Of a stretch of 64,000 nucleotides of DNA, positions 15,320 to 51,725 are shown in pieces. Within the stretch, counting starts at the first letter, position 1. Each line of letters begins with the position of its first letter. The DNA is from Rhodospirillaceae bacterium (GTDB taxonomy: Bacteria; Pseudomonadota; Alphaproteobacteria; Rhodospirillales; UBA2165): contig CANIGJ010000014.1 in assembly GCA_947467145.1 (NCBI GenBank), positions 1 through 64,000 of the forward strand, written 5' to 3'. The notes under the pieces were generated by a model. It was given only the letters and a program-made list of their open reading frames with translations, did no database searches and had not been told where the DNA came from. The position numbers and the translations under genes are program-made.

Positions 15320-17908
15320 TTAGGCGGTTTTACGCAGGCGGAGAAAGCGCGACAGCGGACGGGCGTGTTCGAGCGCGGCGACCACCGGGGTCGACAGGAA
15401 GGCGATGGCCTGCACCACCAGGGTGGCGGCGAACACGTTCACTTCCAGGGTGTTGAAGGTGATGTGGTTATAGCCCCACAGCACGGCGGCGCTGATCATC
15501 AGCAGGCAGCCGAAGATCGTCTCGTTGCGCGCCGGATACGGCTGACCGGTTTTGACCTTCGCCTTGGTGCCGCTCGCCTTGTTGCCCTTGTCGGTGCGGC
15601 TGAAGCCGAGCTGCTTACCGAACAGGCCTTCGGCGACGGCTTTGGCCACGGTCGCCTGCAGGCTCATGGCGGCCAGGGCGGCGCCCAGGATGCGATGGCC
15701 CGGAATGCGGACGCGCACGCCGTACAAGGTCAGGCAGTGCAGGAAATTGACGACGAAGGCGACGAGGATCGGCACCGTGAACGGCAGCATCGGGATCAGC
15801 ACGCCGACGAACAGGATCATCGGCACCCAGATCAGGTTCAGGAAGGCGGCGAGCACGCCGAAGGAATCCGACAGCCAGTAACTCCAGCCGGTGACGAATT
15901 GGATCTTCTGGTGTTTCGTCAGCGTCTTGTCGTTCGGCAGCATGTGACGCCAATGCTTGCGGATGATCTGCATGGCGCCGAACGCCCAGCGATGACGCTG
16001 CGTCTTATAGGCACGGAAGGTGTCGGGCAGCATGCCCCAGCCGTAGCGGCGATTGGTGTACTGGGCTTCGTAGCCGGCTTCGTACAGGCGCAGGCCAAGC
16101 TCGGTATCTTCGGTGATGGTGTCGGTGTGCCACGATCCGACTTCCTCAAACGCTGAGCGGCGCAGCAGCAGCATCGTGCCGTGCGCGATGATCGCGTTGG
16201 TCTCGTTGCGCTGCACCATACCGATATCGAAGAAGCCGGCATATTCGCTGTTCATCACCGACTTGAAGAGTGAATCTTCGCCATCGCGATGATCCTGCGG
16301 CGCCTGCACCAGCGCGATCTTCGGATCGGCGAACAGTGGCACGAGATCCTTCAGCCAGTTGGGATCGACGACGTAGTCGGCATCCAGAAGTGCGATGATC
16401 CTGGCTTCTTCTGCCATCTGCGGCATGGCGGCGTTCAGCGCACCCGCCTTGAAGCCGGCGACCTGCGGCAGGAATACGAACTTGAAGCGCGGGCCGAGTG
16501 CCCGGCAATGCGACTCGATCGGCTGCCAGAAAGCTTCTTCGGGCGTGTTGTTGACGATGACGAGGGCTTCGAAATCCGGATAGTCGAGACGCGCGATGCT
16601 ATCGAGTGTCTCTTTCAGCATGTCCGGATTTTCGCGGTACGCCGGAATGTGGATCGACACCTTCGGCCATTCGAAGCCCTCCGGCGGTTCGACCGGCTTG
16701 CGGATCAGGCGTTTCGGTCGATGGCCAAGCGTCACTTCGGCAACCTCGTGGACCTTTACCAAGGTCGTACCCGTTAGCAGCACCATCAAGATGAAGCCGA
16801 GCACCCAGGCGAAGGCGGAGCCGAAATTCAGATAATTCTCGAACGGATAGAGTGCGGCCATCGCCATGCCGACCGACAGAGTGTTGGCAGCCAATGAAAA
16901 GACGAAGGCATGCGCGAGGGTCGGATTCATCCACATCATGCCGAAGATGCTGATGAGTGCGCCGAAGGCGAGGGCGAGGGCCATGCGCTGGAAGAACAGC
17001 TTGCGCTCCACCTTGCCCTCGAGCGGGAACTTCAGGTTCCGGTCGGCATCGAACATGCCCCAATAGGCGCCGACGCTGCCTTCGACGACTTTCCACGGCT
17101 GGTCGTAAGCTTCGATGATATTGACCGTGATGCCGCGCCGCGCCGCTTCGGCGACGAAGGTGCGGATGAGATTCGCCTGACGCACCTGACCGGTTTCGGC
17201 GCGCTGGAAGTTGTAGCCCTGCGACGGCCAGCCGAATTCGGCGATGACGATGCGCTTGCCGGGATAGGCGGCGCGCAAGGCCTCGTAACGGCCCAATGAA
17301 TATTCGACGACCTCTTCGACGGGGATGCCTTCCCAGTAGGGCAGGATGTGCGCTGCGATGTAATCGACTTCACGCACGAGTTCGGGATGCTTCAACCAAA
17401 TGTCCCAGGTCTCGCCGGTGGTCACCTGTTTCTTGACCTGACGGCGGACCTTGCGGATCGCTTGGATCAATTCTTCGGGCTTACGTTCCAGGCGTAGGAT
17501 GGTTTCGTTGCCGACGACGACCGAACGGATGTTCGGATGCCGGTTGGTCAATTCGATCGCGGCTTTGATCTCGGCTTCGTTGTGGACTTCGTCCGAACCG
17601 ATCCAGGCGCCCGCGACGACGGTCATGCCGTATTTATCTGCGATCGACGGAACCGCTGCCGCCGTACCTGTGCTTTGATAAAGACGCACGCCCGAGGTGA
17701 TCTGCGAAACCGCCGCAAGGTCTGCATCGATGCGATCGACGTCTTCTTGTGTCGGCTGTTTGTTCGAATCCTTCGGCGCACCCAGGGAGTAGGAAACCGA
17801 CGCGATGGAATCGCGCACAGACGGAGCCATCACGCTTTCGCGCGCGATGAACCAACCCGTGGCATGCAAGGCCGCAGCGATGATGGCAGCGGCCAGGATC
17901 TTTTTCAT
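15320..17908 (-). CDS. GH17-GT2 fusion, beta-1,3-glucan synthase (Bradyrhizobium NdvB-like)
   Basis: An 862-residue membrane protein. After an N-terminal anchor (residues 2-20), residues about 30-295 form a GH17-like domain with both expected glutamates: VVVGNE (Glu135) and VIAEFGWPS (Glu224). Hydrophobic helices follow at about 307-380, then a GT2 domain from 415 with DAD (509-511), TED (599-601) and QRHRW (637-641). Four or more C-terminal helices end the protein. This architecture matches the cyclic beta-1,3/1,6-glucan synthases of Bradyrhizobium. It should polymerise glucose from UDP-glucose at the inner membrane while the GH17 part transfers or cyclises chains in the periplasm. Its partner gene lies 39 bases upstream. 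Confidence 0.9.
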   Translation of the reverse strand: MKKILAAAIIAAALHATGWFIARESVMAPSVRDSIASVSYSLGAPKDSNKQPTQEDVDRIDADLAAVSQITSGVRLYQSTGTAAAVPSIADKYGMTVVAGAWIGSDEVHNEAEIKAAIELTNRHPNIRSVVVGNETILRLERKPEELIQAIRKVRRQVKKQVTTGETWDIWLKHPELVREVDYIAAHILPYWEGIPVEEVVEYSLGRYEALRAAYPGKRIVIAEFGWPSQGYNFQRAETGQVRQANLIRTFVAEAARRGITVNIIEAYDQPWKVVEGSVGAYWGMFDADRNLKFPLEGKVERKLFFQRMALALAFGALISIFGMMWMNPTLAHAFVFSLAANTLSVGMAMAALYPFENYLNFGSAFAWVLGFILMVLLTGTTLVKVHEVAEVTLGHRPKRLIRKPVEPPEGFEWPKVSIHIPAYRENPDMLKETLDSIARLDYPDFEALVIVNNTPEEAFWQPIESHCRALGPRFKFVFLPQVAGFKAGALNAAMPQMAEEARIIALLDADYVVDPNWLKDLVPLFADPKIALVQAPQDHRDGEDSLFKSVMNSEYAGFFDIGMVQRNETNAIIAHGTMLLLRRSAFEEVGSWHTDTITEDTELGLRLYEAGYEAQYTNRRYGWGMLPDTFRAYKTQRHRWAFGAMQIIRKHWRHMLPNDKTLTKHQKIQFVTGWSYWLSDSFGVLAAFLNLIWVPMILFVGVLIPMLPFTVPILVAFVVNFLHCLTLYGVRVRIPGHRILGAALAAMSLQATVAKAVAEGLFGKQLGFSRTDKGNKASGTKAKVKTGQPYPARNETIFGCLLMISAAVLWGYNHITFNTLEVNVFAATLVVQAIAFLSTPVVAALEHARPLSRFLRLRKTA

Positions 17909-47961: not shown

Positions 47962-48888
47962 ATGGATCTGAACACTTCCGAACCCGACGTAAAGCAGGCT
48001 CCGGATTTAACGCAGGCGATCGTCGCCATGCGCGACGAAGACCCCGAAACGATCGAAGATCAAATGGAAACGCAAAGCGAAGACCAAGTCGACGAGGCAG
48101 ACGCCCCGGCCGAGCCTGAGAGCGAAGAACAGGCGCCGGCCCAAGAGGCCGTAGCCGAAGACGAGATCGCGCCGGAAGACGATCTGGCGCCCGAGGAATT
48201 GCCGGAACCGACCGCAGAGGTCGATCCCGAGCATCTGCATTTGCTCGAAGCGCTGATCTTTGCCTCCGTCGATCCGGTGCCGCAGCACATCTGCAAGATG
48301 CGCCTGCCCGAGGACGCCAATGTTCCGGCGCTGCTGGCGCGTCTGCGCGCCGACTATTCGACGCGTGGCGTCAATCTGATGAAGATCGGCAAGGGCTGGG
48401 CGTTCCGCACCGCGGCTGAACTCGCGCCGCAGCTTGCCACCCAACGCGAGGTGACGCGCAAGATGTCGCGCGCCGCCGTCGAGACGCTCGCCGTTATCGC
48501 CTATCACCAGCCGGTGACGCGCGCCGAGATCGAAGAGATCCGCGGCGTGTCCATCAGCAAGGGTTCGATGGACATCCTGTTCGAGTCGGGCTGGATTCGT
48601 CCGCGCGGCCGTCGCCGTACGCCGGGCCGCCCGGTGACCTGGGGCACCAGCGAAGGCTTCCTCGATCACTTCGGTCTGGAAACGCTCGACGATCTGCCCG
48701 GCGTGGAAGATCTGCGCGCCGCCGGCCTGCTCGACAAGCGTCCCGCCATCCAGACGCTCGGCATCACCGATCCGAAGACGCCGCTGGATCCGGATGCGCT
48801 GCCGGAACCCGAGGGTGAAGAGGTCGATCTCACCGAAGATCCGCTCGATCCGGAAGACGGCGATCTGCGCAAGCTGATGCAGGAATAG
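47962..48888 (+). CDS. scpB: segregation and condensation protein B
   Basis: A 308-residue ScpB with two winged-helix domains in the middle (about 90-250): HLHLLEALIFASVDPV, YSTRGVNLMKIGKGWAFRTA, AVETLAVIAYHQPVTRAEIEEIRGVSISKGSMDILFESGWI and GRPVTWGTSEGFLDHFGLE. The N-terminal 85 residues and C-terminal 50 are very acidic and probably disordered; the N-terminal extension is longer than in the Bacillus protein. It acts with ScpA and SMC. Confidence 0.94.
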   Translation: MDLNTSEPDVKQAPDLTQAIVAMRDEDPETIEDQMETQSEDQVDEADAPAEPESEEQAPAQEAVAEDEIAPEDDLAPEELPEPTAEVDPEHLHLLEALIFASVDPVPQHICKMRLPEDANVPALLARLRADYSTRGVNLMKIGKGWAFRTAAELAPQLATQREVTRKMSRAAVETLAVIAYHQPVTRAEIEEIRGVSISKGSMDILFESGWIRPRGRRRTPGRPVTWGTSEGFLDHFGLETLDDLPGVEDLRAAGLLDKRPAIQTLGITDPKTPLDPDALPEPEGEEVDLTEDPLDPEDGDLRKLMQE

Positions 48889-48898
48889 GCGGATCGGG

Positions 48899-50041
48899 TT
48901 GCGCGTCGACGTTTACGTCACCGTTTGGGGTGCGGCGTACGTCGACAAGTACCTGACCTATTCGCTGGCGAGCCAAATGACGCCGGGCAATATTCCGGCG
49001 TTGGTGCGCGACGGCATCGAACTCGTCTATCACATCTACACCGAACGCGCGTCCGAAGCACATTTCCATCCGGGCATCGATGGGCTCGCTCGTCATGCCG
49101 ACGTTCGGTTCCATTATTACGAGGACATTCCCTACAAGGGCGTGAGCCTCGCCGAGGCGATGGCGAATTCGCCGCCGGAAACGGTGAAGCACAACGTCCA
49201 GCGGCTGACGTCGCTGCGTTTTCTCGCCGATGCTGGCGAAGCGAAATCCGATGCGGCCATTCTGCTCGATTCCGATTTTGTGTTTTCCGAAGGTTCCTGG
49301 CCCGCGATGATCGCGGCGCGGCGTGCCGGCGCCGAGGCCTTCTGCGCCATGTTCCTGCGGCTGGATGAAAACGCCGCGGCGCCACGCCTCAAGGATCGTA
49401 TCGGCGCTGGCCTATCGGGGCGCGAGATCGTCGCGATCGGTCTGGAGGCGCTACATCCGATCGCGGCCGGGATGTTCGTCGATGCCGATCCGTTCACATC
49501 CTATCCGTCGCAGCTCAATTGGCGCGCCGGGCCGGATGGGCAAGCCGGCTTCGTGACGCACTGCTACTTTCCCCATCCGATGCTGACCAAACCGCGTGCC
49601 GGGCTGCGCTATACCGGGACGATGGATTACGAATATGCGCTGCGTGCGGTCAGCGACGATGCCAAGATCGTGCTGGCGCGCAACTCGGACGACTTCCTGG
49701 TCTGCAAGATGACGCCGTCGTCGTATCTCGCGACACTGCCGCGCGGCGGCAAGGTGAACCTCGCCGATCTCGCCAGCTTCGCCGTCTCCAATACCAATCT
49801 GCGCCATCGCCTGTTCATGGCCCAGCCGATCCGGTTTGTGGCCGGCGGCAGCGAGGCCGAGTGGGAGGATGTGGAAGCGCAATCGACCCGTCTGGTGGAG
49901 GCGATTTATGCGGCGGTCGAGGTGATCCTGGGGACGGCACGGACCGACGTCCGCACCATGGTGTTTCTCAAATCGTTTCTGGGCCCGATCGAGGATTTCG
50001 CCTCGCCCCAGACGTCCGCCCGTCGCGACGGCTGGATGTAG
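48899..50041 (+). CDS. unrecognised GT-A-like protein between scpB and tatA
   Basis: About 380 residues, not a family I can name. It starts at a TTG (48899) with GGCGGA upstream; no suitable ATG lies nearby. The N-terminus (VDVYVTVWGAAYVDKYLTYSLASQM) resembles the beta-strand/helix opening of GT-A glycosyltransferases, and ILLDSDFVFSEGSWPAM near residue 125 has a DSD resembling a DXD metal motif. A late DYEYALRAVSDDAKIVLARNSDDFLV segment also recalls sugar-nucleotide enzymes. There is no signal or membrane helix. It lies 10 bases after scpB and 123 before tatA. The function is unknown. Confidence 0.7.
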   Translation: MRVDVYVTVWGAAYVDKYLTYSLASQMTPGNIPALVRDGIELVYHIYTERASEAHFHPGIDGLARHADVRFHYYEDIPYKGVSLAEAMANSPPETVKHNVQRLTSLRFLADAGEAKSDAAILLDSDFVFSEGSWPAMIAARRAGAEAFCAMFLRLDENAAAPRLKDRIGAGLSGREIVAIGLEALHPIAAGMFVDADPFTSYPSQLNWRAGPDGQAGFVTHCYFPHPMLTKPRAGLRYTGTMDYEYALRAVSDDAKIVLARNSDDFLVCKMTPSSYLATLPRGGKVNLADLASFAVSNTNLRHRLFMAQPIRFVAGGSEAEWEDVEAQSTRLVEAIYAAVEVILGTARTDVRTMVFLKSFLGPIEDFASPQTSARRDGWM

Positions 50042-50164: not shown

Positions 50165-50440
50165 ATGGGTAGCTTTAGCTTATGGCATTGGTTGATCGTC
50201 CTCGCTGTCGTGCTTCTGCTGTTCGGCGGACGCGGCAAGATCTCTTCGATCATGGGGGACTTCGGCAAAGGCCTGAAATCCTTTAAAAAGGGCATGAAGG
50301 ACGAAGAAGAGGAGGCCGCTGCGGCCGCCGCAGCGGCGTCGGCGCAACAGCCGCAGTCGCGCGTCGCGACGGAGCCTCAGCCGCATCCTGAGGGCCAGCC
50401 CCTGGGGACTTCGGCGTTCGATCCGAACAAGAAACCCTGA
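50165..50440 (+). CDS. tatA: twin-arginine translocase subunit TatA
   Basis: A 91-residue TatA with the membrane helix [21 protein letters not shown] (about residues 6-26), the FGGRGKISS hinge, an amphipathic helix [18 protein letters not shown] and an acidic then Ala-rich tail. It oligomerises to form the passage for folded Tat substrates. ATG at 50165. Two proteins of the window carry Tat signals (26783 and 62439). Confidence 0.95.
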
Positions 50441-50514: not shown

Positions 50515-50904
50515 ATGTTCGATAGCTGGTCAGAGATGTTCGTCATCGCCTTGGTTGCCTTGGTCGTGATCGGACCAAAGGACCTGCCGAAGGTGCTGCG
50601 CACGATCGGCCAATGGGTCGGCAAGGCTAAACGCGTCAGTTACGAATTCAAGCGCCATGTAGATGACATGGTCCGCGAATCCGAACTCGACGAAGTCCGC
50701 CAGCAGATCACGGCCGCGACGAACACCGATCCCGGTAAGTATGTCGAGAACACCATCGATCCGGACAAGAAGCTCCGCGAGGCGATCGAATTCGGCGGCG
50801 AAGAACTGGTGAACGTGAAGCTGCCCGAAAACGCACCGGTGAATGCGCCGGCCGCGCCGACGACGCCTCCTGCTCCTGTGCCCGGTAAAGAGCCCCAGCC
50901 GTGA
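50515..50904 (+). CDS. tatB: twin-arginine translocase subunit TatB
   Basis: A 129-residue TatB. It opens MFDSWSEMFVIALVALVVIGPKDLPKVLRTIGQWVGKAKRVSYEFKRHVDDM, with the single helix, the Glu near its start and the GPKDLP hinge that separate TatB from TatA. The C-terminal tail is rich in Pro and Ala. It forms the receptor with TatC, whose start overlaps its stop. Confidence 0.95.
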   Translation: MFDSWSEMFVIALVALVVIGPKDLPKVLRTIGQWVGKAKRVSYEFKRHVDDMVRESELDEVRQQITAATNTDPGKYVENTIDPDKKLREAIEFGGEELVNVKLPENAPVNAPAAPTTPPAPVPGKEPQP

Positions 50905-51725
50905 GTGGCGTCGACGAATCCAAAAAGATGCCGCTGCTCGATCATCTGATCGAACTGCGCGACCGCCTGATCAAATCCTTCATCGCGGTCATCGTCTTGT
51001 TCATGATCTGCTACGCGTTCTCGGACCATATCTACGCCTTCCTGGTTCATCCGCTGGCCAACGTCATTCACGAGCAAGGCGAAAACCGTCGCCTGATCTA
51101 TACCGCGCTGCACGAAGCCTTCTTCACCTACCTGAAGGTGTCATTCTTCGCCGCGATGTTCATTGCGTTTCCCTTTATCGCGGCGCAGTTCTGGCGCTTC
51201 GTGGCGCCCGGCCTGTATCAGAACGAGAAGAAGGCGCTGCTGCCCTATCTCGTGGTGTCGCCGATCCTGTTCTTCATGGGTGGCGCGCTGGTCTATTATT
51301 TGATCTTCCCGATGGCGTGGAAATTCTTCCTGAGTTTCGAATCGCCGGGCGGCGTCGACATGCTGCCGATCCAGCTCGAAGCGAAGGTCAACGAATACCT
51401 GTCGCTTGTGATGCAGCTCATCTTCGCGTTCGGCATCACCTTCCAACTGCCCATCGTTTTGATGCTGGCGGCGCGTGCCGGCCTGACGACGGCTGCTGGT
51501 CTCGCCGAAAAGCGGCGCTACGCCATCGTGATCGCCTTTATCGCGGCGGCGATCCTTACCCCGCCCGACGTTATCAGTCAGGTCGGACTCGCCATCCCGA
51601 TGATCATCCTGTATGAGGCCTCGATCATCGGCGTGCGGCTCGCCGAACGCAGCCGGCGCAAGGAAGAAATCGCCGAAGCCAAAAGTGCGGCGGCGGTCGA
51701 CGATACCGATTTCAACGAGGCCTAG
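50901..51725 (+). CDS. tatC: twin-arginine translocase subunit TatC
   Basis: A 274-residue protein with six helices. LLDHLIELRDRLIKSFIAV near residue 14 is the conserved N-terminal motif that binds Tat signals, and FRLFFVAPGLYQNEKK-like sequence (WRFVAPGLYQNEKKALLPYL) follows. The start (GTG at 50901) overlaps the tatB stop. The C-terminal tail is charged and cytoplasmic. Confidence 0.96.
   Translation: MSGVDESKKMPLLDHLIELRDRLIKSFIAVIVLFMICYAFSDHIYAFLVHPLANVIHEQGENRRLIYTALHEAFFTYLKVSFFAAMFIAFPFIAAQFWRFVAPGLYQNEKKALLPYLVVSPILFFMGGALVYYLIFPMAWKFFLSFESPGGVDMLPIQLEAKVNEYLSLVMQLIFAFGITFQLPIVLMLAARAGLTTAAGLAEKRRYAIVIAFIAAAILTPPDVISQVGLAIPMIILYEASIIGVRLAERSRRKEEIAEAKSAAAVDDTDFNEA

Follow-up and report, generated by a model that had tools for sequence, protein, structure and literature searches.

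The gene between scpB and tatA in the window (the whole stretch of 64,000 nt analysed here) specifies a protein, called X below, that is quite likely a soluble glycosyltransferase of the GT-A fold, probably metal-dependent and inverting, that may act on an envelope glycan. A conserved gene that is missed by searches of Pfam and NCBIfam and by sequence searches of the PDB can thereby be placed in a likely biochemical class. The class assignment extends to a wider superfamily scattered through the Alphaproteobacteria, and the locus points to a lineage where housekeeping genes have taken in a probable glycan enzyme.

Gene organisation

The positions of X, its neighbours and its conserved motifs are given in Table 1. 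Gene names such as scpB and tatA come from the earlier note and from our reading of the open reading frames, and relatives of these proteins occur in the same order in other genomes. X starts 10 nt past the scpB stop (48888), and its start codon, length and coordinates are as claimed in the earlier note; the LLDSDF motif reported there near residue 125 holds D124-S125-D126. Among the 15 orthologues with a visible start the position of the start codon is common (six TTG, one GTG and seven ATG), the remaining one (L006) having an ATG two codons earlier. The highest 19-residue hydropathy of X is 1.52, at residue 177, compared with 2.29 for TatC. Since this peak is low and lies away from the N terminus, the description of the protein as cytosolic is reasonable. 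No glycan gene was found directly beside X. The window also carries a GT2 domain (PF00535) at nt 16139–16657 (minus strand), within an open frame of 875 residues.

Table 1. Gene X, its neighbours and its conserved motifs in the window
Feature	Position (nt)	Strand	Remarks
scpB, upstream neighbour of X	47962–48888	+	name from the earlier note; order conserved
X, 380 aa, predicted GT-A fold protein	48899–50041	+	TTG start
D124-S125-D126, DxD-like motif	49268–49276	+	DSD in 16/16 aligned orthologues
H186	49454–49456	+	16/16 aligned orthologues; 27/28 distant domains
D243 in TMDY[DE], candidate xED-type base	49625–49627	+	16/16 orthologues; 22/28 distant domains
KSFLGPIEDFxSPQ, C-terminal signature	49970–50011	+	common to X and the paralogue group (alignments A1, A2)
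tatA, downstream neighbour of X	50165–50440	+	name from the earlier note; order conserved
tatB	50515–50904	–	follows tatA
tatC	50901–51725	–	follows tatB

Predicted fold and structural matches

Pfam returned no family for X at E up to 1, NCBIfam gave no match, and the PDB, searched by sequence and by profile, gave nothing up to E 10. The Glycos_transf_2 family (PF00535) was touched by two of 27 members, with a best E of 0.017, and its curated cut-off was not reached. A single match in PHROGs (E 0.11) was taken as chance, and a literature search covering largely open-access papers gave no pointer to X among the matches listed. The GT-A family of X lacks a name in the libraries searched (Pfam and NCBIfam).

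An AlphaFold2 model of X, computed from a 24-row alignment of the window and the named loci (mean pLDDT 91.7, pTM 0.90), has a GT-A fold, predicted with high model confidence. The earlier note had called the protein GT-A-like and had named a fold unlike GT-A as grounds for giving up that idea; structure prediction and fold comparison bear the idea out, as the model matches GT-A sugar transferases with Z values of 12–14. Using VIA-align, these included AvpGT (Z 14.2, 4.5 Å, 215 residues aligned), CgT (Z 13.4, 6.3 Å, 221 aligned), K4 chondroitin polymerase or K4CP (Z 13.3, 3.8 Å, 205 aligned), TarS (Z 13.1, 3.4 Å, 187), SpsA (Z 13.1, 4.2 Å, 198) and TarP (Z 13.1, 3.5 Å, 185 aligned), all exceeding the range of 7 to 8 that VIA-align quotes as typical for models with no clear match. 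Among the 50 matches listed, all were sugar transferases or proteins carrying such a domain, the latter presumably the case for LH3. Searched with Foldseek, the PDB yielded 90 matches with an E of 0.001 or lower, and the best 50 of these were nearly all glycosyltransferases, with TM-scores that are low when taken by query length (0.20–0.36). One match of another kind, a GMPPA/GMPPB complex at rank 26 among the matches listed, is what would be expected if X were a GT-A-fold enzyme of other chemistry, for example a sugar-1-phosphate nucleotidyltransferase, but nearly all the other matches listed are glycosyltransferases and DSD aligns with a GT2 DxD (see below), which makes this reading very improbable. 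X is probably an active glycosyltransferase.

Like SpsA, TarP, TarS, the N-domain of K4CP and AvpGT, the first four of which we take to be of GT2 type, X is predicted to have a GT-A fold, with 185–215 residues aligned at Z 13–14. Unlike these enzymes, with which it shares 9–14% identity, X has no match to PF00535, no clear C-His, and a C-terminal helical part of its own that includes KSFLGPIEDF.

Conserved residues and proposed mechanism

According to PMC7185993, GT-A enzymes share the DxD, G-loop, xED and C-His motifs (G335 and H386 are given for 2z87), and the C-His has been lost in several known GT-A clades. In profile alignments, the DSD of X falls on the DxD of the GT2 proteins of its own genome, the comparison set being 11 of the 12 GT2 loci. 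The A3 profile alone aligned with GT2 just over residues 117–149 or 150, with DSD on DxD, and weakly (E 0.07). A second profile was made by adding 28 distant domains to A3, some of these domains being tandem copies within one genome. Its comparison with GT2, which is weak by itself (probability 9–13%, E 0.002–0.004), kept the same register, with a raw score of 28.8 under the 50% column rule (E 0.0035) and 29.8 under the first-sequence rule (E 0.0023), and E values of 0.016 and 0.065 in global mode. As controls, the best of 100 column shuffles scored 15.4, and six unrelated families of the window scored 12.2 to 18.2. D126 is kept in all 28 distant domains but D124 is not kept there; the same domains retain G11 and N31 in 28 cases and W10 in 27.

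Residue D243 stands just before helix 246–250 in the model, and was not paired with a GT2 base in low-threshold profile alignments. G217 is present in 15 of 16 orthologues. By order and spacing only, G217 may correspond to the G-loop and D243 to the xED motif. Residues 150–390 of K4CP align with residues 1–274 of the X model, and H386 of K4CP would therefore lie near residues 264–270 of X. No histidine occurs at residues 263–270, where the C-His is expected; S-D-D and K270 are found there instead.

Taken as a glycosyltransferase, X would use D126 (with D124) to bind a divalent metal together with the diphosphate of the nucleotide sugar, and D243, which lies between the HPL strand and the next helix, just before the latter, would be the xED-type base, in which case transfer would be inverting. 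The fold itself leaves the mechanism unsettled, because the Foldseek matches include what we take to be both inverting and retaining enzymes. The helical C terminus (residues ~319–380, with KSFLGPIEDF) may bind the acceptor or a partner, or may serve in oligomer formation. The reaction would most likely be the addition of a sugar to an intermediate of a cell-envelope glycan, for example a precursor of the LPS core or of the O-chain, although we put forward the envelope glycan as acceptor only tentatively.

Distribution and conservation of gene order

X was detected in 17 of the 24 genomes seen of the family, its own included (16 of the 23 others), and a profile search agrees. One genome (G019) carries a broken remnant and the other six have no match. 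Directly upstream of X lies scpB in 15 of the 16 other genomes, the 16th being truncated at the end of its contig. Downstream, 15 of the 16 have tatA or tatB; the exception (L033) is a contig that stops 2.7 kb further on with no tat gene. The gene is thus conserved at this site, a point on which the earlier note had sought a check. In several relatives, extra ORFs separate X from tatA by up to 2.2 kb. A small gene, BolA-like by eye, lies between the two at L035:5656-5976, L036:10530-10844, L037:3335-3664, L042:9237-9557, L044:9237-9548 and L045:9226-9537, so the gene content of this stretch varies among relatives.

The genus g11 accounts for three of the six genomes without X, and these are 98–99% complete. 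In two of them (G017 and G011; loci L057 and L058) scpB and tatA are 0.4–0.6 kb apart with no X between them; in the third (G015, L059) tatA lies outside the stretch covered. Among the other genomes without X, G005 and G020 have no ScpA match either, and the G023 locus ends in scpA. The reading frame, whose breakage in relatives would have counted against the gene according to the earlier note, is intact in most, and two of 18 copies (own included) are broken: the G006 orthologue has an internal TAA, and the G019 remnant, which spans about 94 residues and contains stops, still adjoins scpB. The latter is a loss of X caught in progress. The G003 copy is cut by a contig edge. Being missing from g11 and decayed in G019, X is a gene that can be lost.

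The stable site of X between scpB and tatABC (in the window it starts 10 nt after scpB) might suggest that it glycosylates a protein linked to its neighbours, for example the Scp complex or a substrate of the Tat system. We consider this unlikely: the two g11 loci have scpB and tatA close together without X, the paralogue and distant relatives described below sit elsewhere, and position in an operon often signifies shared expression only. The place of X beside scpAB and tatABC more likely secures steady expression than points to a direct role in segregation or export.

Seven loci were available from other families of the order. In two (L060 and L063) scpB and tatA are separated by under 150 bp, in another (L062) the gap is 0.8 kb, and the remaining four have no tatA in the ~0.8 kb covered. 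No full-length X was found outside the family among 317 genomes of the order, and the gene was therefore probably acquired close to the family's root. The group bearing X is presumably marine, since MarineAlpha3, TMED and similar isolate names point to sea water.

Selection and descent

The dN/dS values of X were 0.10–0.29 for six orthologue pairs (counting method, dS 0.09 to 1.6), a range that shows purifying selection. A chance ORF is ruled out, and X is a real gene, because it is conserved, has these dN/dS values and keeps a stable gene order. Protein distances for X correlate with those for ScpA, ScpB, TatC, NagZ, SerS and the site-2 protease (r 0.78–0.93; 12 to 15 genomes, with none of 1000 permutations as high), and the mean protein distance is 0.52 for X compared with 0.33 for ScpB, the latter calculated on its best-aligned part. 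Judged by these distances, X is an old gene of the family that has diverged in step with its neighbours. Since its distances follow those of six neighbours, a recent horizontal insertion within the family is unsupported. The earlier note had described X as an insertion among housekeeping genes, and the short scpB–tatA spacing without X in two of the seven loci from other families fits this picture, but within the family the gene is old.

A paralogue of X

A paralogue in the same genome (L002/L090, C15:18029-19129) shares 38% identity with X. At the site of the DSD motif, eight of nine aligned paralogues (L002/L090 and L022-L028) have DSN or DPN, with asparagine at 126 in place of the aspartate found in all 28 distant domains, whereas a divergent ninth copy (L029) has TAD. 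A second copy was found in 10 of the 17 genomes bearing X versus none of the seven others, counts that come from incomplete assemblies; the ten consist of the nine aligned paralogues and one fragment (G018). As second copies occur only in genomes with X, the two proteins may work together.

Such a pairing could mean that X has lost catalysis and assists an active relative as its scaffold or chaperone, in the way that COSMC assists T-synthase; GT-A proteins can take on roles of this kind (PMC7185993). It is X, however, that retains DSD and D243, both present in 16 of 16 aligned orthologues, and if one of the two were inactive then the DSN paralogue would be the better candidate, leaving only a slim chance that X is the scaffold. 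A bolder form of the glycosyltransferase reading, which we rate as rather improbable, is that X, established next to scpAB and tatABC in a single bacterial lineage, founds an undescribed GT-A family and works as a pair with the paralogue, in which X would have the DSD metal site and its DSN partner would be metal-independent or inactive, the two building or capping one lineage-specific envelope glycan.

A CgeB-like gene lies just upstream of the paralogue in five of seven named loci and, as judged by eye, in the own genome (L090); in both loci tested with Pfam (L049 and L052) it is PF13524. The paralogue is thus often next to a second glycosyltransferase gene. At these two loci the paralogue is also flanked by genes that are weakly methyltransferase-like, below Pfam cut-offs. 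Of the others, L050 has a TPR protein upstream instead, and L053 is without a CgeB-like gene.

Distant relatives

The superfamily of X was found in 24 of 385 genomes of the class, own included, and in 33 of 317 genomes of the order, 18 of them from the family of X; in a sample of 398 genomes of the phylum it occurred in the own genome only. X shares with this uncharacterised alphaproteobacterial superfamily W10, G11, N31, D126, H186 and, for the most part, D243 and S263-D264. Unlike in X, D124 is replaced in the superfamily, and some members are fused to other domains or in tandem. No match outside the family extended beyond position 352 of 380.

A close viral match was detected at the level of predicted structure. 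The model of X superposes on that of A0A6J5PWU5, an uncharacterised protein of an uncultured Caudovirales phage (BFVD), over 349 columns (TM 0.75/0.83, E 3e-25), with 18% sequence identity, and the next viral structure match was at 3.9e-6. With regard to a phage origin of X, tblastn searches of phage records with X and one distant relative gave no match, and a scan of viral contigs with A2 gave no confirmed relative.

Ten neighbours of the distant relatives, chosen by eye rather than by systematic survey, are genes for GT2, an ABC exporter, WbqC, asparagine synthase, GT41, TylF, an epimerase and FkbM; some distant relatives adjoin surface-glycan genes. Ten distant proteins were scanned for domains; two have a fasciclin domain, in one case together with a HAD domain, and another has TPRs. 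The fasciclin-fused relatives are at L077:511-2520 and L076:721-2130. Tandem relatives occur at L067/L091 and L069/L093, and L082 consists of two copies in a single long reading frame.
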